This document shows, piece by piece, positions 18,064-64,000 of a stretch of 64,000 bases of DNA. Location of the stretch: contig NZ_CP039250.1 in assembly GCF_004795895.1 (NCBI RefSeq), forward strand, positions 3,720,001 to 3,784,000, in the 5' to 3' direction. The stretch's first letter is position 1; each line of letters opens with the position of its first letter. Origin of the DNA: Sphingopyxis sp. PAMC25046 (GTDB lineage: Bacteria > Pseudomonadota > Alphaproteobacteria > Sphingomonadales > Sphingomonadaceae). The notes beneath the pieces were generated by a model. That model worked only from the letters and a program-made list of their open reading frames with translations, had not been told where the DNA came from and did no database searches. The position numbers and the translations under genes were made by a program.

Positions 18064-18516
18064 TCAGCCTGAAATCAAGATACCCTCCGCGACAAGCTGC
18101 GCGATCAGCGCCGCGATCGCGCTCCGCGCTTCGGAATCGACCACCGAGCCGTCAGCGGGCGCGGCGACCATTGCCGGCTCGACCCATGCCCCGCCCTCGA
18201 ATCGGAGCCGCGCTCCATCGACGATCCGGATGACGCGCATCCCCTCGCGCGGCACCGTAAATCGCCAACCGCCCGACGTCCAGATCGCGATTGCATTGCC
18301 ACGCCCGGCCCAGGCCCCAGCCGGCGCTGCACCGACGACCCAGCATTCTCCGGCAACCGGATTCGCGGGCGGTGTCGCAAGCGGCCCCCCTTCGACCGTT
18401 GCGTGAACGAGCGCGTCGAGCAAGGTCAGAGCTTCGTTGTGAGTTACCTCCTTTTGCGCTTGCGCAACGGCAAGTAACGGTAACGCAAAGCGCGGCGTGA
18501 TCGGCATGTCGGTCAT
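18064..18516 (-). CDS. DUF2793 protein, last gene of the GTA-like cluster
   Basis: 150 residues of the DUF2793 family, usually found at the end of GTA or phage tail clusters of sphingomonads and rhodobacters. The opening TPRFALPLLAVAQAQKEVTHNEAL is shared within the family (quoted here in part: LPLLAVAQAQKEVTHNEA), and the centre is beta-rich with Trp residues (GECWVVG, IAIWTSGGWRF), which fits a tail-tip or receptor-binding role. It starts 9 bp after the megatron-like gene stop. Function is unproven. Confidence 0.85.
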   Translation of the reverse strand: MTDMPITPRFALPLLAVAQAQKEVTHNEALTLLDALVHATVEGGPLATPPANPVAGECWVVGAAPAGAWAGRGNAIAIWTSGGWRFTVPREGMRVIRIVDGARLRFEGGAWVEPAMVAAPADGSVVDSEARSAIAALIAQLVAEGILISG

Positions 18517-18525
18517 GATCTGTCC

Positions 18526-20703
18526 TTATGTCAAAGTCAGAAAGAGCGGTGGTGACTGAGAAAAATCCCCCGTTTGACGAATTTCCATCGCGTGTCCCGG
18601 TGCCAGCGCTGCCAACTCGTCGGCGCCGATATTCAGCGTCGGTGTCTCCAGTTCCCATGGCCCGACGCCGGGAACCGGCGGCACCATCGAAACGCGCCAC
18701 ATTTCCCGGGCTTCGCCCAGCGGCAGGTCGACATGATCGCGCCAGCCGGTGTCGACGCGGCTTCGTCTTGTCCATCCGATCGTGATTCCGCCCGCGCCGT
18801 CCTCGCGGACTTGCCCGTGTACGGGCGAAAGCGGTTGCAACGCTTGTCCGGCTGCCACTACCTCGATCTCGGTGAATGCAGTATCGTTCCGCGCGGCCCA
18901 TTGAAGCGCCGCACCCTCTCCCGCTGTCATCGCGGCAAGCACCTCGGGCAGCATCAGCAACGCCGGATCGTCGAGCAGGACAAATGGCTCGCCCACCGGA
19001 TGAATCAGCTGGCTCGCGGTCCCCGAACGCCCGCGGAGCAAGCGCGTCAAACGCCATATCCGCGGCCCCACGACCTCGGCCTCGCCGAACTGCAGCAGCT
19101 CGCCGCCCACCATTGCCCGGTTGGCACCAGCCAGCAGCGCGGCATCGTCAACCGATTCGAGCATCATCGACGAATTGACCAGTTCGACCGTCACCGTGCC
19201 GACAAGATCGAACAGGCTTTCGTTCCCCATCGTCAGCGGCGCGGTAAGCAGGCCGAGCGCTGCCGCCGGGCGCAACGATCCCACGGAGACCGGTTCGGCC
19301 CCGGGCGACGCGACAAACCAGCAATCGGCGCCACGCCAACCATCGTTGCTACCCGCCCCGGCGATCAGGATTCTAGGCGTCGAGGCGGCGAAGCTCCCCG
19401 CGTTGGGAAGATCGAACAGGTGAACCATGCCGGCGGCGTCGGGCCAGTCGGGAGCGCCGACCGGAACGCCTGGCGCTGCCGGAAGCTCGGCGGCGGGCAG
19501 CGGTTGGTGGCGTCGCAATTCGAGCGAGATTTCGTTCCCGCGCACTATCCGCCCCACCAGCCGCCAGCGGCTCCCGTCGGCGTCGACGACAACCCCTCCG
19601 ACGGTTAGCACCAGCGCGGCCAGGTCGGCGTGCCGAATCACTGTCTCGCGCTCGTCCGCAGCGGCGGAGGCCAGGCGTTGCGCCAGCGCCCGCGCCGACG
19701 ACGCCGGCAGCACCGCCGGCAGGTCGATCCGTTCCTCGTGTGCGCCGCCGCCCGCGACCCGGCTCGTCTGCTGGCCGAGCTGAAAATCGCGCTCCGGCTC
19801 ATAGTGGCGCAGGCGAACCATCCCCGGCAGCGACGACAAGGGCGCGCGTTTCCGCTCGGCGCAATCGCCAGCAGCGTCGTTCCGCCGCGCTTCGAAAAAG
19901 CCGCTCAGCGCCGGCACGTCGCCTGCTCCTGTCGCCGGCGCCAAATGCCAGCCCTCGGGCCCGCTCGCCAGCCGCACTCCGTCGGCATCGAACAGCGGCG
20001 CCAGCGCGTCGCGTGCCCGGTCGCCCGACGCCGCATAGCCCGAAAAGGGCCATTCGCCGCCACAGCGCCCCACATCTCCAAGCAGTTCGTCGCCGATCAG
20101 CCCGACGTCGATACTCCCCACATCGGCCTCTACCTCGAAGGTCAGCGACGGGATCCGGTTGCCAAACGCCCCCAGTTCGAGTTCCTCGAAGACCGCGTAC
20201 GACAGCCCGCGAAACGCGCTCGCCGACGCGATCCCCAGCGCCGACGCGATCAACGGATCGGCCTCCTGATCCTCGCTCCCGTCATACCAGCGAAAGGTGC
20301 AGCGTTCGCGAAAACTGCCGCTCGTCCCGCGCAGCAGATTGCCGTCGGCCCAGATGCGCTTGATCGCGCGGACGGGGCGCGACGACAGTGCGATCGCCAG
20401 CGATACGGCATAGCTATATTCGCTCGTCGACGGCCGCCCCTTGCCGCCCCCGCGCTTGGCCCGCCGCTCGATCAGGTCGGTGGCCCAGATCACGCTGCCC
20501 GCGACGCGCATCGTCCCGAACAATTGCGGGATCTGCTGGCCATAGATCGACGCCTGGACCTTCAAATCGGCGAGCCGCGGCCCCTCGCGCGCCTTGGGCT
20601 TGAATATCTGGGCGTCGACCTGCTGCCCGACCGTCGCGCCGATCGCGGCGCCCACCGGGCCCGCGACAATCCCGCCCACCACCGTCAGCACCAAAGTCGC
20701 CAT
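18526..20703 (-). CDS. GTA megatron-like tail hub protein (gp15-like), shortened
   Basis: 725 residues. The N-terminus MATLVLTVVGGIVAGPVGAA is a glycine-rich hydrophobic helix, followed by a block KVQASIYGQQIPQLFGTMRV that matches the start of GTA gp15/phage tail-hub proteins; the rest is beta-rich Phage-tail_3-like with a C-terminal Trp/Arg-containing domain. In the Rhodobacter GTA the equivalent protein is about 1300 residues (from memory) and carries a TIM-barrel glycosidase-like domain near the N-terminus; that domain is missing here. The ATG at 20703 is chosen over upstream frames because the family begins there. Cell-contact and DNA delivery is the expected role. Confidence 0.85.
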   Translation of the reverse strand: MATLVLTVVGGIVAGPVGAAIGATVGQQVDAQIFKPKAREGPRLADLKVQASIYGQQIPQLFGTMRVAGSVIWATDLIERRAKRGGGKGRPSTSEYSYAVSLAIALSSRPVRAIKRIWADGNLLRGTSGSFRERCTFRWYDGSEDQEADPLIASALGIASASAFRGLSYAVFEELELGAFGNRIPSLTFEVEADVGSIDVGLIGDELLGDVGRCGGEWPFSGYAASGDRARDALAPLFDADGVRLASGPEGWHLAPATGAGDVPALSGFFEARRNDAAGDCAERKRAPLSSLPGMVRLRHYEPERDFQLGQQTSRVAGGGAHEERIDLPAVLPASSARALAQRLASAAADERETVIRHADLAALVLTVGGVVVDADGSRWRLVGRIVRGNEISLELRRHQPLPAAELPAAPGVPVGAPDWPDAAGMVHLFDLPNAGSFAASTPRILIAGAGSNDGWRGADCWFVASPGAEPVSVGSLRPAAALGLLTAPLTMGNESLFDLVGTVTVELVNSSMMLESVDDAALLAGANRAMVGGELLQFGEAEVVGPRIWRLTRLLRGRSGTASQLIHPVGEPFVLLDDPALLMLPEVLAAMTAGEGAALQWAARNDTAFTEIEVVAAGQALQPLSPVHGQVREDGAGGITIGWTRRSRVDTGWRDHVDLPLGEAREMWRVSMVPPVPGVGPWELETPTLNIGADELAALAPGHAMEIRQTGDFSQSPPLFLTLT

Positions 20704-20713
20704 TGCCGTCCCC

Positions 20714-21115
20714 TTATGAAAGCCGCCATCGCCCGGCGCCGCGCACGCCCAAGTCGAGCGGCGTCTCGACCACCTTGCGCAGCCCCGCATGAGCATGAAT
20801 GAAAGTCTCGCGCCCGATCAGGCCGAGATGATATTGCCGCGCCGGAAGCACGATCAGCGCGACATCGCCGGGACGCACCGCATCGCCAGCGCCGACAAAA
20901 CCCGCAGCAGCGAGCGAGCCCTCGATCCGATCGAGGCCCCAGCCGCGCAGCGGATAAGCCGCCGGCCGCGCCAGCCGCCGTCCCGCCGCCGCATAAGCCG
21001 CCCATACCAGTCCGACACAATCGAGCCCCGTCGCCGGATCCTTCCCCTGCGGCCGGAACCGCGCCCCCACCATCGCACGGGCCGCGCGAAAGGCGGCCTC
21101 ACCGCAATCAGCCAC
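20714..21115 (-). CDS. NlpC/P60-family tail peptidase (GTA gp14-like)
   Basis: 133 residues with the NlpC/P60 catalytic Cys in GLDCVGLVWAAY and the His in QYHLGLIG, so it probably cuts peptidoglycan cross-bridges during injection through the recipient wall. The length is that of GTA gp14. It overlaps the DUF2163 gene by 8 bp and ends 10 bp before the megatron-like gene. Confidence 0.9.
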   Translation of the reverse strand: MADCGEAAFRAARAMVGARFRPQGKDPATGLDCVGLVWAAYAAAGRRLARPAAYPLRGWGLDRIEGSLAAAGFVGAGDAVRPGDVALIVLPARQYHLGLIGRETFIHAHAGLRKVVETPLDLGVRGAGRWRLS

Positions 21116-21929
21116 CGGGATAGCGCGTCAGCAAATCATTGCCCGGCAGATGCGCCTCGCCGCGAAAATTGATCGCATTGGCAAAGCGGTCGCGGCACGT
21201 CGCAAGCTGCTTGTCGCATCCCTCGACCAGCCGCACGCGCACCGGTGCCGCTGGTTCGAACGCCGGCGCCTCGGCGAGATGAAGACTTTCTCCGTCCGCG
21301 GAAATCACAGGGCTTTCCAGGCCGCAATTGGCGCCCTCGATCCACGACAAGCTGCCAAAAGCCATGCCGCCCACCGCCGCGTCGAGCGTCACCACGCGCC
21401 CGTCGACCGCCAGCACCCGCCGGATATGCGTGCGCGGCGCCAGATCGACGCGGCACGCGCGGTCGCCGAGCATTGCGCGGCACGAGGGCGAGGTCGCCGG
21501 GCATACCGGCCGGTCGAGCAGCCGCGTCACGCCTTGCAGCTCGGCGGCAAAGGCCGTCCCGCGCTGCTCGATCGCCCCTAATGATCCGCGCGCGACCGTC
21601 ACCGGCGCCGCCTCCGGCGCGGTCCAGTCGGTGACGAACAGCTCGAGTTCCGCCCCGTCCCATCGCCCCGCTTCCAGATCGCGCGCGGCGATCGCGTCAC
21701 TCGCGATTGCGCCCTCCAGGTCCATCGTCGCGGCGTCGATGCCGTCGTTCGTCTCGATCGCCGAGGGTTTCATCCCCGGCGCCGCGCGATAGGCCAAGCC
21801 GCCGACTACCAAATCGCGGTCGTGCGAGGTGAAGCCGATCGCGATCCCGTCGCGCCGCGCCAACCGCCAGCACCAGGCGAGCGTCACCAACTCCTCGCGC
21901 AGCCAGCCGGGCGCTTCCATCATCACCAT
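21108..21929 (-). CDS. DUF2163 family tail hub protein (GTA gp13-like)
   Basis: 273 residues. The DUF2163 N-terminus (WCWRLARRDGIAIGFTSHD) and the C-terminal Cys-rich segment (GCDKQLATCRDRF) match the GTA/phage BR0599-type hub protein that binds an iron-sulfur cluster in Rhodobacter GTA through four Cys; Cys residues are seen in CPATSPSCRAMLGDRACRVD (quoted to 20), SWIEGANCG and the terminal block. The ATG at 21929 is followed by in-frame ATGs at 21923 and 21920; any could be used. Confidence 0.9.
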   Translation of the reverse strand: MVMMEAPGWLREELVTLAWCWRLARRDGIAIGFTSHDRDLVVGGLAYRAAPGMKPSAIETNDGIDAATMDLEGAIASDAIAARDLEAGRWDGAELELFVTDWTAPEAAPVTVARGSLGAIEQRGTAFAAELQGVTRLLDRPVCPATSPSCRAMLGDRACRVDLAPRTHIRRVLAVDGRVVTLDAAVGGMAFGSLSWIEGANCGLESPVISADGESLHLAEAPAFEPAAPVRVRLVEGCDKQLATCRDRFANAINFRGEAHLPGNDLLTRYPGG

Positions 21930-24262
21930 GGCGCCCGCACCTCGACCAGCGGCACGCTCGCCAATTCGCCCGCGAGAAAGGTCGCGCGGCTCGCCTCCAG
22001 CCGGTCTTCGGCAAATCGCACCGGCACATCGAACAGAAAGCCCGCGCGCACCGCGACCCCCGGCCCCGGCGCGGCGTCGAGCGACACCTCGCCATCGTCG
22101 GTGATCAGGAACGCCGCCGTCTCGATCCCGTCGACCGCGACGCGCACGCTCCCTTCGACCGGCAGCCGGATCGGGCGGACCTGTTCGGCATCGCCCTCGC
22201 CATAGCGCTTCACCAGCGCGAACTGCCGCCGTTCCCCGTCGCCCAGACCGAGCAGCTGATCGTCCGCCGCCGGCAGACCGCCGTCGGCGGCCGAACTCCC
22301 GTCGAAGGGATCGCGAAAGCGAAACCCCCGCGCCGCGCCGCGCCGCGCGCGAAAGAAATCGGTCAGTGCGCGCACATCGGTTTCGGACCGGATTCCCGGC
22401 CCCGCGTCATAACGCATCCGCGGCTCGGCCCATTCGCTCGCGCGCTGCTCATGCCCCGATGGCGAACTCACGATCTGGGTCGAAAATTCGGTGACGACCA
22501 CCGCTTCGCGCCCGATCGCGAGCGGAAAATCCACCGCATCGAAAGCCTGCACATCATCCTCCCCGTCAAAGATCACGAACCCGTCGCGCGCCACCTGCGG
22601 CAGCGCCCAGATAAAGGCGCGCGCCACCCCCGCGCGCCGCGCCGCGCCAGCCGCCTCGGCAATCGCCGCCCACCCGGCGCGCTGCTCGGGCAACAGCACG
22701 AAGCCCGAAAAATAATGCTGCTCATGGGCTGGATAGCCGAGCCGTACCGTCATCGCCGTCCGCGCGCCCGCCGTTTCCACGCCGCGCCCGCCGGTTACCC
22801 AGTCATAATCCTCCAGTTGCAGCACGTCGAAGGCCGGCGCTGCCCACCCTAACGGCACATTGGCGCGGCGCAGCGCGGGCGCCGCGGGGTCGAGGACCGT
22901 CGGCAGATAGACTAGCAGATGGCTAACCAGCCCCGTCGCGTCCGCCTCATCGCGCGCCGCCGCAACCAGCGCCGTTGTCGACGCCGCAAGCAGCGCCCCC
23001 AACGCATCGAGCATCGCCAGTTGCGACGCGTCCAGCATCCCGCGCACATCGGCGATCGGCACGCTGGCGCTGCCCAGCGCCGCCGTCGTCGCGGCATCAT
23101 AGGCGCATATCCGCCCTTCGCCCGCGATCCACCACCACGGTTCGCCGACCTGGAATTTCAGGTCGAGTCCCGCCGCCGCGCCGATTGCGACGAACGCGCG
23201 TGCGACCGACTGCAAATATCCCATCGCCTCGTCATTCGCGGGGGACAGCAAGGTCGACGGAGGCTCCCACCCGGTCAGCGCCGGCGACCCGTCGCTCGCG
23301 CGCTGCTTCCAGTTTTCCGGGCAATAGGCATCGAACAGCTCGTAGGAGAGCGACCAGATCACTCCCAGCCCCGCCGCTTCGCATGCCGCCGCGAACGCCG
23401 CGTGCCACGCTGCGCTCGGCGCATTGAGCGCGCCGCCCGCAACGCCGACATGAAATGCGCCCTCCGCCGCCTCGAGCCGCATATAATGGCTCATCCCGAC
23501 ATAATGGACGATGTCGCCGCGATAGCCGAGCTGCACGACCTGCCGCACCAGCCGCGCGGGCGTCAGATGATAGCTGTCGTCATAGCCGCTCGCGATGCCC
23601 AGCCCCCCGTCTGCCGGGTCCAGCTCGGGCATCACCACATCGCCGATCGCAAGCACCGATCCCGATCCCGAGCAGACGATCTCGCTCATCTCGGCCCAGC
23701 CCTGCACGGGGGCCGGCAGCACGCCATCGCCGCCGTCATAGACCGGTGGCACCAGCGAAATGAACATCCGGTCGATATCGCCCGCCCACACGGGGTCGGC
23801 TTCGCCGGGCAACAGAAACCCGCCGGCCAGCGCATCGAAATCGAGTGTGACGATGGCGTCTTCCGCCGCCCCCTCGGCGTAATTCCACAGCCGCACATAC
23901 CAGGCGCGAGCGCTCCCCGCGGCGTCGCGCCCCTCGATCGTCAGCGTCGGCCCGTGCAGCGCATCGAGCGGCTTAACCCCGCCCGACCGCCAGCGGAAGC
24001 TCAGCCGTGCGTGCCGGAAATCGCGTTTCGTCTCATAGGCGAGCAGCGGGTGATCCCAACGATCCTCGCTCTCCCAGATCAGCCCCGCCAGATCCTGCTT
24101 CCGATAAAAGACCGCCTCAACGCGCAGGGCGTCAGGCGCGTCGCTCGTCACGCTCGCCATCATCGGCCGCGCGAAATCGACCGTCCAGAACCTCGGGTCG
24201 AACCGCTTGAGCCAGGTTTTCCGATGATGCGGCTCGGCGGCCGAAACCAGCGCCCAGCCCAT
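21923..24262 (-). CDS. GTA distal tail protein (DUF2460, gp12-like) fused to large N-terminal domain
   Basis: 779 residues. The C-terminal ~192 residues (from about 588, starting VVVTEFSTQIVSS) are a standard DUF2460/gp12 distal tail protein with RYDAGPGIRS and FRFRDPFDGS. The N-terminal ~587 residues form two extra domains: a beta-rich jelly-roll-like part (to ~180) and an alpha/beta part with features of a glycoside-hydrolase TIM barrel (VIWSLSYELF, KFQVGEPWWW, FDVLQLEDYDWV, RAFIWALPQVA), with the acidic residues in GEPWWW and QLEDYDW as possible catalytic groups. In Rhodobacter GTA, gp12 is only about 200 residues. ATG at 24262 overlaps the preceding stop (TGATG). Confidence 0.85.
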   Translation of the reverse strand: MGWALVSAAEPHHRKTWLKRFDPRFWTVDFARPMMASVTSDAPDALRVEAVFYRKQDLAGLIWESEDRWDHPLLAYETKRDFRHARLSFRWRSGGVKPLDALHGPTLTIEGRDAAGSARAWYVRLWNYAEGAAEDAIVTLDFDALAGGFLLPGEADPVWAGDIDRMFISLVPPVYDGGDGVLPAPVQGWAEMSEIVCSGSGSVLAIGDVVMPELDPADGGLGIASGYDDSYHLTPARLVRQVVQLGYRGDIVHYVGMSHYMRLEAAEGAFHVGVAGGALNAPSAAWHAAFAAACEAAGLGVIWSLSYELFDAYCPENWKQRASDGSPALTGWEPPSTLLSPANDEAMGYLQSVARAFVAIGAAAGLDLKFQVGEPWWWIAGEGRICAYDAATTAALGSASVPIADVRGMLDASQLAMLDALGALLAASTTALVAAARDEADATGLVSHLLVYLPTVLDPAAPALRRANVPLGWAAPAFDVLQLEDYDWVTGGRGVETAGARTAMTVRLGYPAHEQHYFSGFVLLPEQRAGWAAIAEAAGAARRAGVARAFIWALPQVARDGFVIFDGEDDVQAFDAVDFPLAIGREAVVVTEFSTQIVSSPSGHEQRASEWAEPRMRYDAGPGIRSETDVRALTDFFRARRGAARGFRFRDPFDGSSAADGGLPAADDQLLGLGDGERRQFALVKRYGEGDAEQVRPIRLPVEGSVRVAVDGIETAAFLITDDGEVSLDAAPGPGVAVRAGFLFDVPVRFAEDRLEASRATFLAGELASVPLVEVRAPW

Positions 24263-24828
24263 CAATCCTCTCCGCTTGCCACCGCGCGCCGCACCGCACG
24301 GGCCAGCTGCCGCCCCGTCTGCGCCAGCCGCTGCGGCTCGCTGCCTGCCTCGCCCCGCACATTCACCGTGATCGCGATGTTGCGCACGCCCCCGCCCGCC
24401 GCCTCGATCCGCCCGCTCGCGGTCGGCACGAACAGCTCGGGCCCGCGCTCGCCGACGCGATAGGCCCGCCCCGCGCTCACCGGCCCACCCGTCGCCCGGC
24501 CCGGCGCGCCGAACAGCGCCATCGCGATCGACGTACCCAGCGACAGCAGCCCCCCGCCGCCCGATCCGCCGCTCGCCGCGCCGATACCGTTCGAAATCGC
24601 CGCGCGCGCAATATCGGCCATCACCGACAGCGCGAGCCGCTTCAGATCCTCGAACCCCATCTTGCCGCTCACGATCGCGCGCGACAGCGCCCGCTCGATC
24701 GCACGCCCCGCGCGATCGGCTTCGACGACCAGCGGCCCGCCCAGTTCGGCGCGCAGCGCCGCTATGTCGCGCCGGAACGCTCCGGTATCGGCGCGCACCG
24801 CGACGATCATTTCGTCCACCTCATCCAT
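24262..24828 (-). CDS. Short phage tail tape-measure protein (GTA gp11-like)
   Basis: 188 residues, predicted to set tail length. The N-terminal part begins with an acidic helix (MDEVDEMIVAVRADTGAFRR) typical of tape measure start, then a Gly-rich hydrophobic centre (SGGSGGGGLLSLG) and GPELFVPTASGR, a C-terminal tape-measure signature. Phage tape measures are usually 500-1500 residues; the small size matches the short GTA homologue (about 220). Gene overlaps: 8 bp with the upstream chaperone, 1 bp with the downstream distal tail gene. Confidence 0.88.
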   Translation of the reverse strand: MDEVDEMIVAVRADTGAFRRDIAALRAELGGPLVVEADRAGRAIERALSRAIVSGKMGFEDLKRLALSVMADIARAAISNGIGAASGGSGGGGLLSLGTSIAMALFGAPGRATGGPVSAGRAYRVGERGPELFVPTASGRIEAAGGGVRNIAITVNVRGEAGSEPQRLAQTGRQLARAVRRAVASGED

Positions 24829-27370: not shown

Positions 27371-27526
27371 TCAGGGTTTGCGCACCGTCACGCGCCGCGC
27401 CGCCTCGCGCGCCAGCGGCAGCACCGTCTGCGGCGCCGCCGGCTCGGGACCGGCCCACTCGCTAGCGAGATCGCGCCTTGCGACATCGCCGATCGCGCGC
27501 GCGGCCAATGCCGATCCGTCCATCAT
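27371..27526 (-). CDS. Small protein (51 aa) overlapping the tail fibre gene
   Basis: A short frame from ATG 27526 (overlapping the fibre stop as ATGA; a second ATG follows at 27523) to TGA at 27371-27373. The sequence is Ala/Arg-rich with a helical first half (SALAARAIGDVARRDLASEW) and a basic C-terminus ending VTVRKP. No family is recognised. Coding is supported by the ATGA overlap upstream and a 15 bp gap to the next gene, the same packing as its neighbours. Confidence 0.55.
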   Translation of the reverse strand: MMDGSALAARAIGDVARRDLASEWAGPEPAAPQTVLPLAREAARRVTVRKP

Positions 27527-29097
27527 GCCGCGGCCTCAAGCGCCGCGAGGCGCGCGTCCTGCGCCGCGATCAGGAACAGCGCCAGCTGATCGGTGCGCAC
27601 GCCGAAGCGGTCGCCGGCGGGCGGGCCTTCGCCGGTGGCTTCCTCGTCCCATTTGTCGTGGCACAAAAAGGCATAGCGGCTGCTCGACGCCGCGCCTTCA
27701 GCGATCGGGTCGATCAGCCCTTCATCGGCCATGATCGCCCATACCGCCTGCGCGCGAACGCCAAAGTGCAGCCGAGCGCCGTCTTCCCCTTTCATGGCGA
27801 TCGCGTGGTCCCATCGGAAAAAGCCGAGTTCGCCGATGATGCGGCGCGCCGCGGCTATTTCTTCGATGGTCGGCTCGCCACGCCACGTCTTTTCGCGGGC
27901 GTCCGAGGTGTTGATCGTGCCGGTGCCGGCATAGATTAGCGACCAGCGCGCCGACGACCATCCGAGCACCTGTATATTGTCTCCTCCCGGCGTCACATTT
28001 CCGGCGGCATCGACCGTCAACCGTTGGGCGCCGTCCGTAACCAGGGCGATCTGGTTTGAAGCCGACAACATAAGGCCGGTATCGGGATCGGCAGCGAAGC
28101 TATAAGCGGGCGCCGCGCTGGTCCCGGAAACGCCCTGCAATTGCCCTTCGGGCAGGATACGGAACAGGGTCGTCCCCGCCGCAAGCGGGTCGCCCGCAGA
28201 GGCGTTCGACCGGCGAAAAACGAGTTCGCCATAGGCGACATGGCTAGCGACGATGGCCCAATTGCGGTCGTTCACATTGCCGCTGCCGTTGTAAAAGGCG
28301 ATGTTCGGCTGCGTCGCACTGCTTTCGAGGCGAAGCTGCGTGGCGCCCGCACCGCCTCCACGAACGTGCAGCAAAGCGGCGGGCGCGCTCGCTCCGATAC
28401 CGAAATTCCCGCTGCCGGTGATCCGCGCACGCTCCGCGCCATTGGTCGCAAAGCCCAGTATATTGCTCGCGGGCTGCCACAAGCCGGTTCCGCCGTCGCC
28501 CGCAAAGCCGATCGACGGCGCGAGCGCGCTTCCGTTTCTTGCGGCCAGCGCGCCGTCCAGCGCATAACGGCCATCCCCATCGCGAAACGCCAGTGCCGAC
28601 AGCGGAATATTGACCCAGCCGGCGCCACGGCGAACCGTCACTGCGTCCGTTGCGTCGCCCGCGCCCGCGCTTGCGTGCGTTGTCGACAGCGGCTGCTTCG
28701 CCTCGACCGCATCCGCCAGCCCCGCCAGTTCGCCGCCGACCGCCGTCACGCCGGCCGCCAGCGTCGCCGCCTGCGTATCGCTCGCCGCGAACCATCCGGC
28801 GCCCACGGTCAGCGCGATCGTTTTCAGTCCGGTCGCGAAATCGACCGTCGCACCGCCCGCCGACGATGCCGCCACCGTCTCGCGAAGCAAGCGGCCGTCG
28901 ACGTCGATCCGGCCGGTGCCGACCTCCCATTGTTCGGGGCGGGCGATCCCCGCCACGGCATAGTGAAACGAAGCGCCGGGCGGCACCGCGTCGGCAAAGC
29001 GGCGATGACCGGGCACCGCGCCGGTCGGCGTCAGCGGCCCGGTCCCGCCGTCTTGGGCAAGCTCGCGTACCAGATCGGCAAAAAAGGGGGTCGGCAT
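27523..29097 (-). CDS. Tail fibre with C-terminal S74 self-cleaving chaperone domain
   Basis: 524 residues. The N-terminal ~100 residues are a globular domain; the middle shows repeated beta-type phrases such as GIGASAPAALLHVRG and DPDTGLMLSASNQIALVTDG, typical of trimeric fibres; the end is a peptidase S74/intramolecular chaperone domain with TSDAREKT. Ser398 is the expected nucleophile for self-cleavage, with Lys403 nearby. After folding, the 127-residue chaperone part would be released. The gene sits after the capsid gene, an unusual place, since fibres normally lie with tail genes. It is likely a receptor-binding appendage. Confidence 0.9.
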   Translation of the reverse strand: MPTPFFADLVRELAQDGGTGPLTPTGAVPGHRRFADAVPPGASFHYAVAGIARPEQWEVGTGRIDVDGRLLRETVAASSAGGATVDFATGLKTIALTVGAGWFAASDTQAATLAAGVTAVGGELAGLADAVEAKQPLSTTHASAGAGDATDAVTVRRGAGWVNIPLSALAFRDGDGRYALDGALAARNGSALAPSIGFAGDGGTGLWQPASNILGFATNGAERARITGSGNFGIGASAPAALLHVRGGGAGATQLRLESSATQPNIAFYNGSGNVNDRNWAIVASHVAYGELVFRRSNASAGDPLAAGTTLFRILPEGQLQGVSGTSAAPAYSFAADPDTGLMLSASNQIALVTDGAQRLTVDAAGNVTPGGDNIQVLGWSSARWSLIYAGTGTINTSDAREKTWRGEPTIEEIAAARRIIGELGFFRWDHAIAMKGEDGARLHFGVRAQAVWAIMADEGLIDPIAEGAASSSRYAFLCHDKWDEEATGEGPPAGDRFGVRTDQLALFLIAAQDARLAALEAAA

Positions 29098-56698: not shown

Positions 56699-59600
56699 TC
56701 AGAAGCGAACCCGGAAGCCCGCGGTGCCCTTCAGATTATAGCCGGCGCCAAAGTCGGCGATGGCCGTGTCACCCGACACTTCGGTGTAGAGGGTGAAACG
56801 GTCGCCGCCCCAGCTATAGCTGCCGCCAAGGCCGAGTTCGCCCGACAGGCGATGGTCGCGATTGGCGATCGGCGTCCCGGACACGTCGGCAACCGCACCA
56901 TCGAGCCATTCGTAGCTGAGGTTCATCACCGAATAGAGCCGCGTGCGGCGGGTATCGCCCGACCGGCCCTTCCAGCTCGTCTGGTGATCGATCGCAAGAC
57001 CCCAGCGGGTCTTGAGGCTTTCGCCCGTCGCAGCCGAAACCGCGGCGTCCGACGGATCGACGAAGCGATCGAAATCGACCTTGGAATAGCTCATCTGGAT
57101 TTGCGGCGTGATCGACAGGTTGCGCCCGATCGCGGTCTGCTTGCCGAGTTCGAGGCTGAACGCCTGCCCGTCGCCCTTGTTGCCCTGAGCCAGCGAACCG
57201 AGAATGTTCGATTCAAGGTCGCTGTCGAACCAGCTGAGCTTGACCTGCCCGTCGACATAGAAGCCCTTGGGCCCATACCATGTCATCGTCGCGCCGACGC
57301 CATAGCCTTGCGTATCGATCGTGCCGTTGCCGAAGATCGACGTCACGGCACTGTCCGCCTTGCCATAATGCGCGGTCAGGCCGCCGACGAGCGCGGCGCC
57401 GTCGCTGCGCTCTGCCAGCACTGCATCGAGCCCGAGTTGCGCCTGCCACTGGTCGACCTTGCGGTCGGCACCGCTCGTCGAGACAAGCGCTTCGGGGCGC
57501 TGGCGTTCGGATTCGAACCGGCCCCACAGCCCGGCCCCGGCGATCGGCGAAGCGGCCCACGACCGGTTGCCGACGCGCTGCTGCAACGTCGGCAAGCGAT
57601 TAAGCGACTGGAGTGCACCGACATAGGCCTCATAGACGGGAACCCCGGGCTGATAGAGCGGTCCTTCGGGATTTCCGCCATCGTCGAGCAGCGCCGAGCG
57701 CAGATACCAGTCGCCGTCCTGCGGCGTCGCGATGCCGTTCTTGTAGAGCCGGTAGCCATAGGCGCCGGCGATCACCGCCTGCTCGCCGTCGAACAGATAG
57801 TCGCCGTCGAGCGTGAAATCGCCGTTCGAAGCGCCGGCGACATCGACAATCTTGATGCCCTCGACCGTCTGCGCGCCAAGGCCGCCGCGATTGACCACGG
57901 TCACCCGCGTGTTGCCCGAGGTCGCGCCGTTCACGACCAGACGGTCGGCAAGCGATGCGTCGCCGCCAAGCTCGGCCTCGATCTCGAGCACACCGCCCTC
58001 GCCGCGATAGTCGCCTGCGACCGTCAGCGCCCCGATGCTGCCGCCCGGTGCGACGACGCCCGCGTTGACGATGCTGCCGACGCGGCCCGCGCCTTCGAGG
58101 CGACCGGCCGAATTGACCGTCACCGCACCGCCAAGGCTGCCCTGCACGGCCAGCGTGCCGCCGGCGACCGTCGTGCTGCCGCCGAAGCCGCCGTTGTCGG
58201 CGGTGACGAGCAACGTGCCCGCACCATTCTTGGTCAGCGCACCCGTGCCCGAGAAGAGACCGTTATAGGTAAAGACCGTATCGGCCGCGGTCGCGATCGT
58301 ACCCCCGCCGGTCACGGCGAAGCCGCGCGCGCTCGTAAGAGTTGCGCTCGTCTCCAGCGTGCCGCCATCGAGCGTCACTTCGCCGCTCGCCGCGCCGAGA
58401 TTGGCGTCGTTCGAAATGCGGAGCGTGCCACCCACGATCTGCGTGCCGCCGGTGTAGCTGTTCGTGCCGCCGAGGACGAGCGTCCCCGCATCGGTCTTGA
58501 CCAGCTGCGCCGTACCCGAGAGCGCCGAGTTGATCGTCGCGGTGAAACCCGCGCCAGCTGTGCTGCCGTCGCCGACGCGGATCGTCGCCTGCACCCCGTC
58601 GAGCGCGAGGGCGTCGCCGGTGATGACGTAGCCGTTCGTCGCAAACTGCATGCCGGTGGCCGACACGGCGCCCGGGCCGTTATCGACCGTTACCGTACCC
58701 GCCGTGCCGCCGAAGATCGCAAAGGCGCCATCGGCATAAGGCGCACTGAGGTTGCCCGTCGCGTCGGTCCAGTTGTCGTTGCCGGCGCTGCTCTGCCACA
58801 CGCCGTCGCCGCCGTTGATCACGCCGTCGACCCTCGGCCCGGCCGCGCCGTCCCAGAAGTTCAGCATCAGCCCACCCGAATTGACCAGATTGACCTGCCC
58901 CGCGACCGAGGTCTGGATGGCGGCGTTGGCGCCCGTCGGCATGGTGCCGAAGGTGACGCCATTGTTCGTCAGCGTGCCGCCATAGTTGAACATGCGATAG
59001 ATGCCGACGTCGAACGCGCCGCCCGCCGGAACGCCGACATTGAGCACACCGTCGAGGACAAGGTTTCCACCGACGTTGACGAGGTCGTTGAGCGCACCGC
59101 CCGCGACCCCCGCCTGTCCGAATTCGAAATCGAGCTGCGTCCCCGCCGCAAGCGACAGATTGCCACCGATGGTCAGCGTGCCCGTTCCGCCCGCACCCGG
59201 TGCCAACGTCGCACCGCTGGCGAAGTCGACATTGCCGCCGATCGTCCCCGTACCGCCCAGCGTCGCGCCCGCGGCGACACTGGTCGCGCCGGTCGCCGCC
59301 GAATAGTCGCCATTGACAAACAAGGTGCCCGCTTCGACCGTCGTGGTGCCGGCGAAAGATCCGCTGCCGCCAAGCGCCAGCGTGCCCGCGCCCGCCTTGG
59401 TGAGCCCGCCTGTGCCGCCGACCGGGCCGGTCAGCGTCAAGGTCGTGCCGGCATCGCTGCGGAACACGCCATCGCCGATCAACGTGACGGTGCGGCCCGA
59501 AACGATATCGGCGGTCGTGTGAAGCGCGCCGCCGCCGAGCGACAGCCCGCCGCTCGCGTCGCCCAGATTGGTATCGCTGCCGATCCGGACCGTGCCGCCG

Positions 59601-62600
59601 TTGATTAGCGTACCGCCACCATAGCTGTTGGCGCCGGTCAGAACGAGCGTGCCGGCGTCGGTCTTGAGCAGTTGCGCGGTACCGGCGATCGCCGCGTCGA
59701 TCGTCGTGGTATAGCCTGCGCCCGCGACGCTGCCGTCGCCGACCTGAACGATCGCCTGCGTGCCGGTCAGCGTCAGCGTGTCGCCAGCGATTACATAGCC
59801 ATCGCTCGCGAACTGCATACCCGAGGCGAGAACGTTGCCGCCGCTGTTGTCGATCGTGACCGTGCCGGGCGCGCCCGCGAAGACCGCGAAACTGTCCTGA
59901 GCATAATCGGCGTTGATCGAGCCGTCCGCGTCGGTCCAGTTGTTGAGGCCGCCTGCGACGCGCCACACGCCGTCGCCGCCGTTAAGCGTTCCGTCATGCT
60001 TGGGCCCCGCCGCGCCGTCCCAGAAGCTGAGCGCAAGGCCCATCGAATTGACGAGGTTGACCTGACCCGCGATCGCGGTCTGGACCGACACGCCGCCAGT
60101 CCCACCGGGGATCGCCCCCAGCGTCAAGCCATTGTCGATCAGCGCACCGCCATAGTTGAAGACGCGGTAGATGCCGGGGCCGAAGGTGCCCCCTGCCGGG
60201 ACCGTCACATTGATCGTTCCGTCGAGCGTCAGGTCGCCGCCAACATTGACCAGGTCGTTGAGCGTGCCGCCCGCGACATCGGCCTGCCCTAACTCGTAAT
60301 TCAGGATCGAGCCACCGGCGAGCGACAGATTGCCGCCGACCGTCAGCGTGCCGGCACTTTCCCCCGGTGCAAGGATCGCGCCATCGAGCATGGCGACATT
60401 GCCGCCGATCGTGCCGGTGCCACCGAGCGTAGCGCCCGCAAACACTGTCATAAGGCCGCTCGCCGCCGACTGGTCGCCATTGACCAGCAAAGTGCCCGCA
60501 TTGACGAATGTGGCCCCGGCATAGCTATTGGCACCCGTCAGCGTAAGCGTGCCGAGGCCGTCCTTCGTCAGCCCGCCCGCGCCGGAGAAGCGCGGCGCAA
60601 TGCCGATATTGTGACCGTCGGTGTCGATGATGCCACCGTTTGTGCCGAGCGTGATGTCGTTCGCACCGAAATCGGCGAAGAACTCGCCTTCATCCTGCGT
60701 CGCGCGGAGCACGCCGCCGTCGAACGAGAAATTGACCGTCCCCAAACCGGCACCGATCTGGCTGGTCTCGACAACACCGCGGTTGCCGGTCGTGCCCGCT
60801 ATGGTCACGGTTCCGCTGGACCCCGCCGCGAAGCCGAGCGCGAAGCCGCCCTCGGCGCGGACCAGCCCGCCGTTTTCGACCAGCAGCGAGCCCGTACCAT
60901 CGTTGCCGACGGTCATCGAGAAATCGGTGACCAGCCAGCGCGACCCGGCGCCGGTCACAACGACGCTCCCGGTGGAATTGGCGCCGATATAAGCCTGATT
61001 GCTGGTGACGCTCGCGCCGTTCTCGATACGCATGGAGCCGGTGCCAAAGCTGCCGACGCTCAGTTGCTGGGTGTTGACCCATGACGTGCCGACGCCGGCT
61101 ATGATCGCGTTGCCGTTTCCGGAGGCCCCGACGATCGCGTCATTGCTGGTCACCGTCGCGCCATTTTCGATGCGCAGCGTACCGGCGCCGAAAAGGCCGA
61201 CGTTGATCCGTCCGCTGTTCTCCCACAGCGAGCCGGCGCCGGCTACGAGCACCTGGCCGACGCCGTCGGAATTGGCGCCGATCTGGCCGCCGACGCTGAC
61301 GACCTTGCCGCCGTCGGCAATATTCAACGTGCCGTTGCCGTCATAGCCGACGAGCACATCGCCATTGTTCGTCCAGATCGAGGCGGCGCCGTTGCCACCG
61401 ACACCCAAGACATTGACGATCCCCTGGCTGCCGGCGTTGGAGCCGATCCAGCCCGACTGATTGCTGACCTGGCCGCCTGCGGTGATATTCAGCGTGCCGC
61501 TACCAAACTCGCCGACGACGATGTCGCTTGCGCCGGTCCAGGTCGAAGCATTGCCATTGGCATCCCGCCCCGAAACATTGACGGTCCCCTCGCTGCCCAC
61601 ATCGTCTCCAATATAGGCGATATCCGCGACGGTCACGATGCCGCCATCGAGGATATTGAGCGTGCCGGTGCCAAGGCGGCCGACACGGAGGATACCCGTG
61701 TTGGCCCAGGTCGAGGCGTTGCCGCTGCCGTCGGCGCCTATGACGGTGAGGATGCCCTGCTCGCCGCTTTCGCGACCGATCATGCCGTCCGTATTGTTCA
61801 GCGTGCCGCCGTCCGCGAGCCGTAGTTCGCCGCCCCGGACATTGGTTTCGCCCACGAAACTGTTGTCGCCCGTCAGCACGAGTGTGCCAAGGTCGGTCTT
61901 GATGACGTCGCCGATGCCGGTCAGGTTCGACGCGATGTTGGCGGTATAGGCCGCGCCGCCAATCGAGCCGTCACCGACGCGAATGATCGCCTCTGATTCA
62001 ACGAGCGCGATATCGGTGCCCGCGATGACATAACCGTCGCTGGCGAACTGCATTCCCGATGCCGTGACCGCACCGAGCGAGTCGTCGACGGTTACCGCGC
62101 CACCGACGCCCGAGAAGACCGCGAAGGCCGCGTCGGTGAACGGCGCGTTCGCCGAACCGTCGAACTCGGTCCAATTGTCGTTGCCGCCGCTGGCCTGCCA
62201 CAGGCCGTCGCCGCCCGTGATCACCCCGTCATTCTTGCCGCCGTTGACGCCGTCCCAGAAGCGCATCGTGAGGCCGGTGGTGTTCACCAGATTGACTTGG
62301 TTCGCGACCGATGTCTGCACGAAATAGCCCGCATTGACCGTCAATCCGTTGTCGGTCAGCGACCCGCCATAATTGATGACGCGATAAACGCCGGGTTGGA
62401 AGTTACCCCCAAGGGTCTCCTGCACATTGAGTGTCCCGCCGAGAACGAGGTCGCCGCCCACGTCGATCAGGTCGTTGTACGCGCCGCCAACGACATTCGC
62501 CTGACCGAAGTCGACGTTGAGCGTCGCGGCGGAGGTGAGGTTAAGATCGCCCGCGATCGTGAGCCTGCCCGGAACCCCGCCGACGCTGCCCGGATTGAGG

Positions 62601-64000
62601 TTGCCGTCGAGGATGGCAACATTACCGCCAATTGTGCCGGTGCCGCCCAGCGTGCCGCCCGTCGCCACGCCGACATTACTCGCCACGCCGCCGAGGATTC
62701 CGTCGATGAACAGCGTGCCGCCCGCGACCGACGTTGTGCCAGTAAAGGCCGAGCTGTCGCCGGTCAGGCGCGTCGTGCCCGCCGCATGGTTGATCGAACC
62801 CGCGCCCGACATACTGCTAGCCAAGAGATAGTCGGTGCCAGCGTGGTTGAAGTTCAACTCGCCCGCGCCAGGGCCGAAAATGATGTTGCCGTCGATGAAG
62901 CCCGCTGCGGCCGCCAAACCGCCTTCGACGCCGCCGATATTTACGGTGCCGGTCGAACCGACTTGGGAGGCAATCTGGAGTCCTGAGCCGGCGATCACCC
63001 GCCCGTTGTCGGCAACCGTCAGGACGGCGGTTCCGGTCCCGCTACCGATAACAAGATCACCGGTGGTGGCGAAGCTGGAACTCGCACCCGACACCGTCAG
63101 GCTCGCGGCCTGCGGCGCGGTCCCGAAGGTCGCCGACGTAAAGCTAGCCGCGCCGCCCTGATCGACGGTGAAATCGCCAGCGGTCATCAGCAACGCGCCA
63201 GTGCTCGTCCAGTTGGAGCCCGCCCCGGTGACCGCGACGGCGATGGCGTTGCTGTTGCTGGTCGCAGTGCCGATCTGGCTCGCGCCCGCGGTGCGCAGCG
63301 TCCCGCCCGCACCCACCGTCAGGCTGAAGGGGCCGTTGAAGGTCGCGCTCCCCCGGATGCCGCCCGACACATCGGCGAGCGAGTTCGCGCCGGTGATGTT
63401 GAGCTGGGTCGAGGCGGTGGGCGCGCGCAGGTCGAAATCGCCTGCCCTCAGCCGTAGCGTGCCGCCGTTCGTGACGTTCACGACAACCGAACCGGCGAAA
63501 GCGATATTATTCCCGCCAACAAACGCTGTGCTGTAGAGCGAGTTCGCGCCGTCGATGCTCAGCGTCGAGCGGCCCAGGGTCGTGCCGCCGCCGGACGTGA
63601 CGTTCGCCCCGCCGACGATGCGCAGCTCGCCGCCCGTGCCGTTGATGCTCGTCCCGCCACCATAATTGCTGTCGCCGGTCAGCGTGGTTACGCCGGTTCC
63701 GGCTACACGAAGGCCGCCAGTACCGGTGATCGATCCGCCATAGGTATAGGCGTTCGAGCGGTTGAAGACGAGGAGGGCATTGTTGACCACGTCACCCGCG
63801 ATCGAACCTGTGGTGCCGGAGAGATCGCCAATTTGCAGCACCCCCGCCTCGATCGTCGTGCCGCCGGTGTAGGTATTTTCGCCGCCGAGCGTGAGCGAGC
63901 CGGCACCCAGCTTCGTAAATCCGCCCGTTCCGGTCATGGCGTCGAGTATGCCGTTGGAGGTCGCGGCGTTCGCCACGTCGACCGCGCCGCCGTTCGCGCC
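56699..64000 (-). CDS. Giant autotransporter adhesin-like protein (5' end beyond window)
   Basis: At least 2433 residues; the frame remains open at the window end, so the start is not seen. The C-terminal ~285 residues (from GLWGRFESERQRPEA to FRVRF, ending in Phe) form the beta-barrel translocator. The passenger is built of PATR-type units (GTLVLTGANSYGGGT-like), three long modules of ~290 residues with FWDGAAGP and GMQFASDGYVIAG, and a block of ~7 short repeats (NGTLNIADGG-type). It is probably a surface beta-helix for adhesion or aggregation. Type Va secretion. Confidence 0.92.
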   Translation of the reverse strand, partial: GANGGAVDVANAATSNGILDAMTGTGGFTKLGAGSLTLGGENTYTGGTTIEAGVLQIGDLSGTTGSIAGDVVNNALLVFNRSNAYTYGGSITGTGGLRVAGTGVTTLTGDSNYGGGTSINGTGGELRIVGGANVTSGGGTTLGRSTLSIDGANSLYSTAFVGGNNIAFAGSVVVNVTNGGTLRLRAGDFDLRAPTASTQLNITGANSLADVSGGIRGSATFNGPFSLTVGAGGTLRTAGASQIGTATSNSNAIAVAVTGAGSNWTSTGALLMTAGDFTVDQGGAASFTSATFGTAPQAASLTVSGASSSFATTGDLVIGSGTGTAVLTVADNGRVIAGSGLQIASQVGSTGTVNIGGVEGGLAAAAGFIDGNIIFGPGAGELNFNHAGTDYLLASSMSGAGSINHAAGTTRLTGDSSAFTGTTSVAGGTLFIDGILGGVASNVGVATGGTLGGTGTIGGNVAILDGNLNPGSVGGVPGRLTIAGDLNLTSAATLNVDFGQANVVGGAYNDLIDVGGDLVLGGTLNVQETLGGNFQPGVYRVINYGGSLTDNGLTVNAGYFVQTSVANQVNLVNTTGLTMRFWDGVNGGKNDGVITGGDGLWQASGGNDNWTEFDGSANAPFTDAAFAVFSGVGGAVTVDDSLGAVTASGMQFASDGYVIAGTDIALVESEAIIRVGDGSIGGAAYTANIASNLTGIGDVIKTDLGTLVLTGDNSFVGETNVRGGELRLADGGTLNNTDGMIGRESGEQGILTVIGADGSGNASTWANTGILRVGRLGTGTLNILDGGIVTVADIAYIGDDVGSEGTVNVSGRDANGNASTWTGASDIVVGEFGSGTLNITAGGQVSNQSGWIGSNAGSQGIVNVLGVGGNGAASIWTNNGDVLVGYDGNGTLNIADGGKVVSVGGQIGANSDGVGQVLVAGAGSLWENSGRINVGLFGAGTLRIENGATVTSNDAIVGASGNGNAIIAGVGTSWVNTQQLSVGSFGTGSMRIENGASVTSNQAYIGANSTGSVVVTGAGSRWLVTDFSMTVGNDGTGSLLVENGGLVRAEGGFALGFAAGSSGTVTIAGTTGNRGVVETSQIGAGLGTVNFSFDGGVLRATQDEGEFFADFGANDITLGTNGGIIDTDGHNIGIAPRFSGAGGLTKDGLGTLTLTGANSYAGATFVNAGTLLVNGDQSAASGLMTVFAGATLGGTGTIGGNVAMLDGAILAPGESAGTLTVGGNLSLAGGSILNYELGQADVAGGTLNDLVNVGGDLTLDGTINVTVPAGGTFGPGIYRVFNYGGALIDNGLTLGAIPGGTGGVSVQTAIAGQVNLVNSMGLALSFWDGAAGPKHDGTLNGGDGVWRVAGGLNNWTDADGSINADYAQDSFAVFAGAPGTVTIDNSGGNVLASGMQFASDGYVIAGDTLTLTGTQAIVQVGDGSVAGAGYTTTIDAAIAGTAQLLKTDAGTLVLTGANSYGGGTLINGGTVRIGSDTNLGDASGGLSLGGGALHTTADIVSGRTVTLIGDGVFRSDAGTTLTLTGPVGGTGGLTKAGAGTLALGGSGSFAGTTTVEAGTLFVNGDYSAATGATSVAAGATLGGTGTIGGNVDFASGATLAPGAGGTGTLTIGGNLSLAAGTQLDFEFGQAGVAGGALNDLVNVGGNLVLDGVLNVGVPAGGAFDVGIYRMFNYGGTLTNNGVTFGTMPTGANAAIQTSVAGQVNLVNSGGLMLNFWDGAAGPRVDGVINGGDGVWQSSAGNDNWTDATGNLSAPYADGAFAIFGGTAGTVTVDNGPGAVSATGMQFATNGYVITGDALALDGVQATIRVGDGSTAGAGFTATINSALSGTAQLVKTDAGTLVLGGTNSYTGGTQIVGGTLRISNDANLGAASGEVTLDGGTLETSATLTSARGFAVTGGGTIATAADTVFTYNGLFSGTGALTKNGAGTLLVTADNGGFGGSTTVAGGTLAVQGSLGGAVTVNSAGRLEGAGRVGSIVNAGVVAPGGSIGALTVAGDYRGEGGVLEIEAELGGDASLADRLVVNGATSGNTRVTVVNRGGLGAQTVEGIKIVDVAGASNGDFTLDGDYLFDGEQAVIAGAYGYRLYKNGIATPQDGDWYLRSALLDDGGNPEGPLYQPGVPVYEAYVGALQSLNRLPTLQQRVGNRSWAASPIAGAGLWGRFESERQRPEALVSTSGADRKVDQWQAQLGLDAVLAERSDGAALVGGLTAHYGKADSAVTSIFGNGTIDTQGYGVGATMTWYGPKGFYVDGQVKLSWFDSDLESNILGSLAQGNKGDGQAFSLELGKQTAIGRNLSITPQIQMSYSKVDFDRFVDPSDAAVSAATGESLKTRWGLAIDHQTSWKGRSGDTRRTRLYSVMNLSYEWLDGAVADVSGTPIANRDHRLSGELGLGGSYSWGGDRFTLYTEVSGDTAIADFGAGYNLKGTAGFRVRF
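58395..59285 (-). repeat. Autotransporter long module, copy 3
   Basis: About 890 bp encoding the module GTGTIGGNV - FEFGQAG - FWDGAAGP - GMQFATNGYVITG - DAGTLVLGGTNSYTGG. Copies 2 and 3 are closer to each other than to copy 1, judged by shared phrases. Limits are approximate. Confidence 0.75.
59560..60445 (-). repeat. Autotransporter long module, copy 2
   Basis: About 885 bp: GTGTIGGNVAMLDG, YELGQADVAGGTLNDLV, FWDGAAGPKHDG, GMQFASDGYVIAGD, then DAGTLVLTGANSYGGG. Limits are approximate. Confidence 0.75.
60790..61790 (-). repeat. Autotransporter short-repeat block
   Basis: About seven repeats of roughly 45-55 residues with the pattern GxGTLNIxxGGxVxxxxxxIGxxxGSxGxVxVxGxGSxW. It lies between long modules 1 and 2 and looks like a T5SS passenger repeat of the PEPC/ESPR-associated type (from memory). 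Confidence 0.7.
61795..62670 (-). repeat. Autotransporter long module, copy 1
   Basis: About 875 bp: GTGTIGGNVAILDGN, VDFGQANVVGGAYNDLI, FWDGVNGGKNDG, GMQFASDGYVIAGTD and LGTLVLTGDNSFVG. It is the most diverged copy. Limits are approximate. Confidence 0.7.

Follow-up and report, generated by a model that had tools for sequence, protein, structure and literature searches.

A tail-sheath module with a predicted glycosidase-fold barrel on the distal tail protein of a gene transfer agent-like cluster in Sphingopyxis, beside a megatron without its peripheral domain

The window analysed here, a stretch of 64,000 nucleotides from Sphingopyxis sp. PAMC25046 (contig NZ_CP039250.1, positions 3,720,001 to 3,784,000), contains the genes of a putative RcGTA-like gene transfer agent (GTA), among them a distal tail protein (gp12/Dit) with a long N-terminal extension and an unusually short megatron (gp15). 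By its profile matches, the extension is an NCTSP_N plus TIM-barrel module of the non-contractile tail sheath family of phage N4 gp65/gp64. We consider it fairly probable that, in sphingomonad-type GTAs, Dit was fused to this ready-made module, that its glycosidase-fold barrel engages polysaccharide and that the peripheral domain of the megatron thereby became dispensable. An earlier note on this DNA had proposed that a glycosidase-like domain was relocated from the megatron to Dit or, alternatively, that an unrelated tail-sheath-like barrel was acquired. The observation behind it was confirmed; the relocation was not, and the alternative was borne out by the matches to PF23844 and PF23845. 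The features concerned are the following.

21923..24262 (-): GTA distal tail protein (gp12/Dit) with N-terminal non-contractile-tail-sheath module, 779 amino acids (aa)
23642..24211 (-): NCTSP_N (PF23844), Dit residues 18-207, E 8.4e-99
22577..23605 (-): TIM-barrel_NCTSP (PF23845), Dit residues 220-562, E 4.7e-159
21935..22537 (-): DUF2460 / Rcc01695-type Dit domain, residues 576-776, PF09343 E 3.8e-72
18526..20703 (-): short megatron (gp15), 725 aa, without peripheral domain
19855..20130 (-): 92-residue stretch joining the N-part and the C-part of the megatron, the insert site in other groups (421-829 residues); boundaries from our own hidden Markov models (HMMs)

The extension matched PF23845 with 529.5 bits (model positions 4-348 of 348) and PF23844 with 328.9 bits (1-191 of 191; cut-off 27). 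The TIM-barrel-like character read earlier from the phrases VIWSLSYELF, GEPWWW and QLEDYDWV, all of them present in the extension, was thus upheld; the extension measures about 575 residues, and not about 587, as DUF2460 starts at residue 576 of 779. This Dit domain passed the cut-offs of both TIGR02217 (195.2 bits against 136.65) and PF09343 (242.5 against 30.4). The open frame, 21923-24265 (-), encodes 780 aa from a TTG, and the ATG at 24262, which shares one base with the stop of the upstream gene (24262-24828), gives 779 aa; residues are numbered here from that ATG, and the scanned 780-aa frame counts one more. As a possible internal start for Dit alone, residues 555-600 offer GTG codons only.

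No match to GTA_TIM (PF13547), the barrel domain of the RcGTA megatron, was found by Pfam in the extension at E<=1. When 14 NCTSP barrels were aligned by hhalign with 18 GTA_TIM domains, a probability of 1.0% over 25 columns was obtained, and the conserved motifs of the two sets differed. The closest solved relative of the barrel was gp64 of the podophage N4 (profile E 1.2e-98, from profile position 63), and the start of the barrel profile (positions 4-104) matched N4 gp65, the second half of that match being poorly aligned. N4 thus splits the barrel over both subunits of its sheath heterodimer, and the available text of PMC12633501 places the two proteins around the tail tube; no fusion to Dit or hub was found in the N4 system. 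Additionally, a search of a phage collection with the whole 780-aa protein gave 376 matching records. Among the 60 matches listed, some, with Rhodobacter and Caulobacter phages in their names, presumably match by the Dit part alone, and many, such as those of Acinetobacter phages and phi92 relatives, by the module. The proteins phi92 gp142, Loki ORF17 and fJoAci01_00046 all proved to be NCTSP proteins. The phi92 and Acinetobacter phage proteins have the module in common with the window, but are stand-alone (719, 699 aa) and match neither Dit nor hub.

The Dit model had a mean pLDDT of 89.2, and the TIM part modelled alone a pLDDT of 93.2 and a pTM of 0.92. The predicted fold is an eight-stranded barrel of the glycosidase TIM type, structurally highly similar to glycosidases such as the C-terminal domain of PgaB (GH153) and the GH42 beta-galactosidases; sequence identity to these is about 10%, and none of their families was matched by sequence. 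The megatron chains of 6tba and 8gtc were not among the 50 fold matches listed, which excludes nothing (the 8gtc entry was its Dit chain). Residues E308, E374, D389, D479, E484 and R559 were invariant in a set of 45 barrel sequences. The three glutamates E308, E374 and E484 were kept in 14/14 members reaching from GTAs through phi92, fJoAci01 and Loki, as well as in 45/45 of the wider set, and their motifs are also visible in the N4 gp64 alignment. The barrel has its Glu E374 after beta4, whereas the probable catalytic residue of GH153 is an Asp, D474, according to the available text of PMC5933820. No glycoside hydrolase (GH) family, GH42, GH153 and GH14 included, was among the seven Pfam families matched by the 14 members at E<=10, in a search in which the HMMER filters discard most weak matches. 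The dN/dS of the barrel was 0.21-0.37.

The megatron (ATG at 20703, end at 18526) was identified as an Rcc01698-type baseplate protein by Phage-tail_3 (73 bits, cut-off 23) and Rcc01698_C (87.6 bits, cut-off 27). NF048004 (GTA_megatron) was matched in two stretches, the best covering 1-196, with 390.9 bits against a cut-off of 800; the protein falls outside this equivalog, its core being present and its middle missing. In the alignment with the RcGTA megatron (PDB, 1304 aa), residues 22-202 corresponded to 10-192 of the window protein and 850-1249 to 281-674, and because the region between is skipped, the missing stretch is the peripheral domain. The absence of the TIM domain of the roughly 1300-residue Rhodobacter protein, noticed earlier, was hence confirmed (no Pfam match to GTA_TIM at E<=1). 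Furthermore, a search of the whole 4.5-Mb genome gave no GTA_TIM, one Rcc01698_C match and one DUF2460 match, so that no separate full-length megatron was found elsewhere in the genome.

The survey of Sphingomonadales suggested in the earlier note was carried out on 99 genomes, in which the NCTSP barrel was found in 43, GTA_TIM in 0, the megatron C-domain in 48 and DUF2460 in 46. In 210 genomes of the class, the figures were 20 for GTA_TIM, 3 for the NCTSP barrel, 34 for the megatron C-domain and 33 for DUF2460, and the 20 genomes with GTA_TIM and the 3 with the barrel did not overlap. DUF2460 was matched 37 times in the class sample: 33 matches lay in frames of 203-265 aa, 2 were fused (G000, G005) and the remaining two, in G140 and G142, lay in frames of 322 and 362 aa. 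Named carriers of the Dit fusion included Sphingopyxis, Emcibacter, Paremcibacter, Luteithermobacter, Iodidimonas, Rhodothalassium, Govanella, Pedomonas, Sphingomonas, Novosphingobium, Sphingobium, Qipengyuania, Tsuneonella and Polymorphobacter; module and Dit remained in one frame in 35/38 Dit-fused genome loci. Two unusual matches were also recorded. One GTA_TIM match (L025, G151:C1:1672792-1673700) lies inside what the search reports as a 32612-aa open frame, an oddity that masking of the sequence may have caused, and a 1156-aa protein of Xanthobacter aminoxidans (L362) holds NCTSP_N (129-313) and the barrel (779-1138) far apart, with no match to Dit or hub.

Module and megatron insert were then compared in 81 loci, the window and 80 regions hand-chosen from the genome matches and classified with home-made HMMs; in 75 of them the N- and C-parts of the megatron lay in one frame. 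Where the module was present, 40/40 megatrons were without insert (85-105 residues between the parts), and where it was absent, 30/35 had one. Among these 30, in none of which the module occurred, 17 carried GTA_TIM (565-829 residues) and 13 a different insert (421-506 residues; L110, L125, L126, L147, L158, L160-L164, L166-L168), which looks propeller-like; in L147 and L158, Pfam found only the neighbouring Phage-tail_3. The five loci with neither module nor insert were L117 and L165 (141 and 151 residues between the parts) and the decayed sphingomonad loci L139, L173 and L174, in which no Dit was matched. In viral contigs, 122/122 one-frame megatrons beside the module were short, a count without a control group, since these scans selected for the module; several of its loci, moreover, show a contig that another locus already covers. 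Similarly, 69/69 megatrons beside the module were short among the best 80 of 318 relatives (named loci, one genome scan). On the tree of megatron cores, the module label and the insert label each required three changes, and relatedness therefore explains most of these counts. The reciprocity is real, yet few independent events lie beneath it.

Some of these loci showed further peculiarities. The megatron end of L117 (1816-4815) weakly matched the phage adhesin Gp38 (PF05268 E 1.5e-4, 22.1 bits, below the cut-off of 25), perhaps another side domain, and a HINT/intein-like stretch was seen within the megatron N-part of L165 (4409-8113; PF07591 E 0.021, below cut-off). In L110, L125, L126, L147, L161-L163 and L166, a long intervening stretch divides the hub match into two pieces (in L125, Pfam domains at 21-181 and 463-542 of 551 aa), so the hub too accepts extra domains.

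The module was joined to baseplate proteins more than once. A fusion to the hub was found at 3 genome loci (L121, L128, L169), 9 viral loci (L264-L272) and 8 named loci (L345-L352), sets that partly overlap (L345 is 100% identical to L169). The named loci include Aquibaculum arenosum, Fodinicurvata fenggangensis, Iodidimonas muriae and Rhodothalassium salexigens. Dit was a separate gene in all hub-fused loci except L268, whose contig starts inside the fused gene, and the megatron was short wherever both of its parts were present. Both forms occurred in Iodidimonas muriae (L350 and L353) and in Rhodothalassium salexigens (hub-fused locus L351 and Dit-fused protein P0237). In three contigs of 59-64 kb (L304, L313, L322), the module was fused to one Dit and a second Dit adjoined it. 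On the barrel tree, the hub-fused proteins formed a clade (99/93), the GTA barrels lay on one side of a 93/95 branch, with L293 inside, and the Dit barrels of the phage contigs were united at 100/100. On the Dit tree, the fused Dit of L304, L313 and L322 grouped with the second Dit of the same contigs (99/94), and a 100/100 branch separated the GTA Dits. In approximately unbiased (AU) tests of the barrel tree, weakened by the fact that the groups were named after inspecting it, GTA and phage Dit barrels together were not rejected (p 0.064) and GTA Dit plus hub barrels were (p 0.033). These groupings point to at least two and probably three fusions. GTAs of Sphingomonadales and neighbouring orders have the module on Dit, prophage-like elements have it on the hub, and in phage contigs it was joined, apparently in a separate event, to a second Dit. 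A single origin of all Dit fusions, which the AU value leaves possible, was not favoured, as the Dit tree separates phage-contig from GTA Dits.

Related arrangements were seen in single cases. In L293 (7356-9692), a GTA-type barrel has its Dit part swapped for an unrelated C-terminal stretch, and no other baseplate gene was matched on the locus. In L173 (5352-6116), an NCTSP_N piece continues without a break into the hub, the product to be expected of a deletion across the Dit gene. ORF17 (NCTSP_N+TIM) of the Acinetobacter siphophage Loki was considered as a hub fusion. It is flanked by ORF16 ('putative distal tail protein') on one side and by ORF20 on the other, and hhalign gave ORF20 a probability of 87.7% with the megatron N-part; no match was obtained by hhalign between the 194 C-terminal residues of ORF17 and hub (1.7%) or Dit (0.3%), nor between ORF16 and Dit (3.7%).

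The Dit, hub, peptidase and megatron core of RcGTA and of roseophage R4C are homologous to the window genes, but there a GTA_TIM barrel lies inside a megatron of 1304-1447 aa and Dit has 210-214 aa, whereas the window GTA carries an unrelated barrel on Dit and a megatron of 725 aa. The hub-fused elements (Rhodothalassium, Iodidimonas, Aquibaculum, Fodinicurvata and others) share the window-type module, baseplate genes and short megatron; they differ in their well-matched tape-measure frames, which are long (587-815 aa), with the exception of L169 (a 167-aa frame only, weakly matched). The link of R4C Dit to a glycoside hydrolase family, reported from Pfam and PSI-BLAST in the available text of PMC10276861, is probably explained by Dit-module fusions.

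The best reading of these results is a replacement by a non-homologous barrel of like general fold. A ready-made phage module has been joined to the N-terminus of Dit in GTAs that belong to Sphingomonadales or to orders related to it. As far as the available texts describe, RcGTA and R4C have a Dit hexamer above a threefold baseplate of three hubs and three megatrons (PMC7296036, PMC10276861), and the N-terminus of RcGTA Dit shares in the contact with hub and megatron (PMC7296036); the module would therefore lie near the baseplate in six copies per particle. By this analogy, six barrels may ring the tail tip, compared with three unrelated GTA_TIM domains on the megatrons of other GTAs. A probable task of the barrel is to bind surface polysaccharide and cut it, or at least to grip it, by which the tip would reach the outer membrane. 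Its work would resemble that of the RcGTA TIM domain, which, in the available text of a preprint (PMC13420450), protrudes from the baseplate with a function stated to be unknown and helps to hold the biofilm-degrading spike TspA, homologues of which the preprint found in Rhodobacterales and in no other Alphaproteobacteria that have a megatron. Where the Dit ring carries the module, or the hub does so in the related prophage-like elements, the peripheral domain of the megatron would be dispensable and absent.

Several points weigh against this reading. Fold likeness alone proves no function, no enzyme assay of the module was found in the available literature searched, and the direction of the Dit N-terminus is taken by analogy. 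Besides, N4 gp65 is described as a receptor binder and gp64:gp65 as a six-fold non-contractile sheath (PMC12633501, available text). Binding alone, as in that sheath, is the main rival to cutting: the barrel would be a structural or receptor-binding element with a vestigial glycosidase fold, which we regard as rather unlikely. The lack of any solved enzyme among the close sequence relatives, and of any GH family matched by sequence, agrees with it; the invariance of E308, E374 and E484 exceeds the needs of a scaffold, though a binding site would conserve them too. The reciprocity might also be a historical accident, the short megatron being a lineage state unconnected with the module, which seems similarly doubtful. 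Only two independent pairs were available on starred branches of the megatron tree, one concordant and one without insert difference, which puts significance out of reach, as the sign test needs at least six pairs with an insert difference to come to 0.05; the tree is weakly supported at depth; and L117 and L165, short without module, show that 'exactly one side domain' does not hold strictly. However, the hub-fused elements sit (84/81) among relatives with insert-bearing megatrons, the megatrons of Dit-fused GTAs form another group (79/19, weak), and the module was never found with an insert.

That the loci are degraded prophages, in which the fusion has no functional meaning, appears very improbable: some are broken (L103, L136, L138, L139, L173, L174), but the single frame kept in most Dit-fused loci, the barrel dN/dS and the HK97-type head genes and 188-aa tape measure of the window argue against it. 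A true move of the megatron GTA_TIM into the Dit gene deserves almost no credence. Both domains are TIM barrels, the gain of about 575 aa nearly matches the loss of 579 aa (1304-725), as had been remarked, and module and insert never occurred together; nevertheless, the two barrels belong to different Pfam families, reach an hhalign probability of 1.0%, differ in their motifs, and the closest relatives of the barrel are proteins of N4, phi92 and Acinetobacter phages. The relocation was thus refuted at the level of detectable homology. Beyond the replacement itself, we tentatively suggest that RcGTA-type tips have one glycan-handling side domain, filled by unrelated parts on different rings (GTA_TIM or a propeller-like domain on the megatron, NCTSP on hub or Dit). 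A hexameric instead of a trimeric ring would double the copies from 3 to 6 and free the megatron, and NCTSP might be a new glycosidase family, a portable cassette across phage tail types and GTAs.

The remaining genes of the tail tip are listed here.

21108..21929 (-): baseplate hub (gp13), PF09931 + PF09356, unfused at this locus
20714..21115 (-): NlpC/P60 tail peptidase (gp14), PF00877 E 7.5e-6, 26.3 bits (cut-off 23), and our own HMM; its TIGR02219 match stays below cut-off
24262..24828 (-): short tape-measure protein (gp11), 188 aa, phrog_30701 (unknown function) E 1.2e-55 and weaker tape-measure PHROGs

Portal, protease, capsid (HK97-type), connector and tail tube all matched above their cut-offs, and the terminase weakly (E 7e-4, 18.5 bits against 150). 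This gene content is that of an RcGTA-like GTA. Within the head-tail cluster, between the capsid and connector genes, stands a gene for a tail fibre (27523-29097, -) that includes a Peptidase_S74 chaperone domain, a DUF2793 protein (18064-18516, -) with weaker PHROG matches that include tail fibre proteins lies immediately downstream of the megatron, and a 2425-aa open frame (56699-63976, -) occupies the window end.

The domain annotation of the module is already in Pfam, and the pattern of its placement seems undescribed: no sphingomonad Dit fusion was described in the available text of the open-licence literature searched, including PMC7296036, PMC13420450, PMC8669469, PMC12633501, PMC5313236, PMC8601537, PMC10883770, PMC9765227, PMC11445458, PMC10276861 and PMC5933820. 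The finding ties GTA tails to the N4/phi92 family and supplies a candidate for a new glycosidase family, with specific residues that could be mutated. Marker screens based on the full-length megatron, such as one in which PSI-BLAST matches were filtered to a coverage over 75% (PMC13420450, preprint, available text), could miss or misjudge sphingomonad GTAs. Co-evolution of GTAs with their hosts is claimed in the title of PMC10883770. If a non-homologous barrel of glycosidase fold indeed stands in on another ring of such GTAs, the GTA_TIM and NCTSP designs would become comparable and assayable, and a glycan-handling barrel at the tip would be a selected need of these particles and not baggage.
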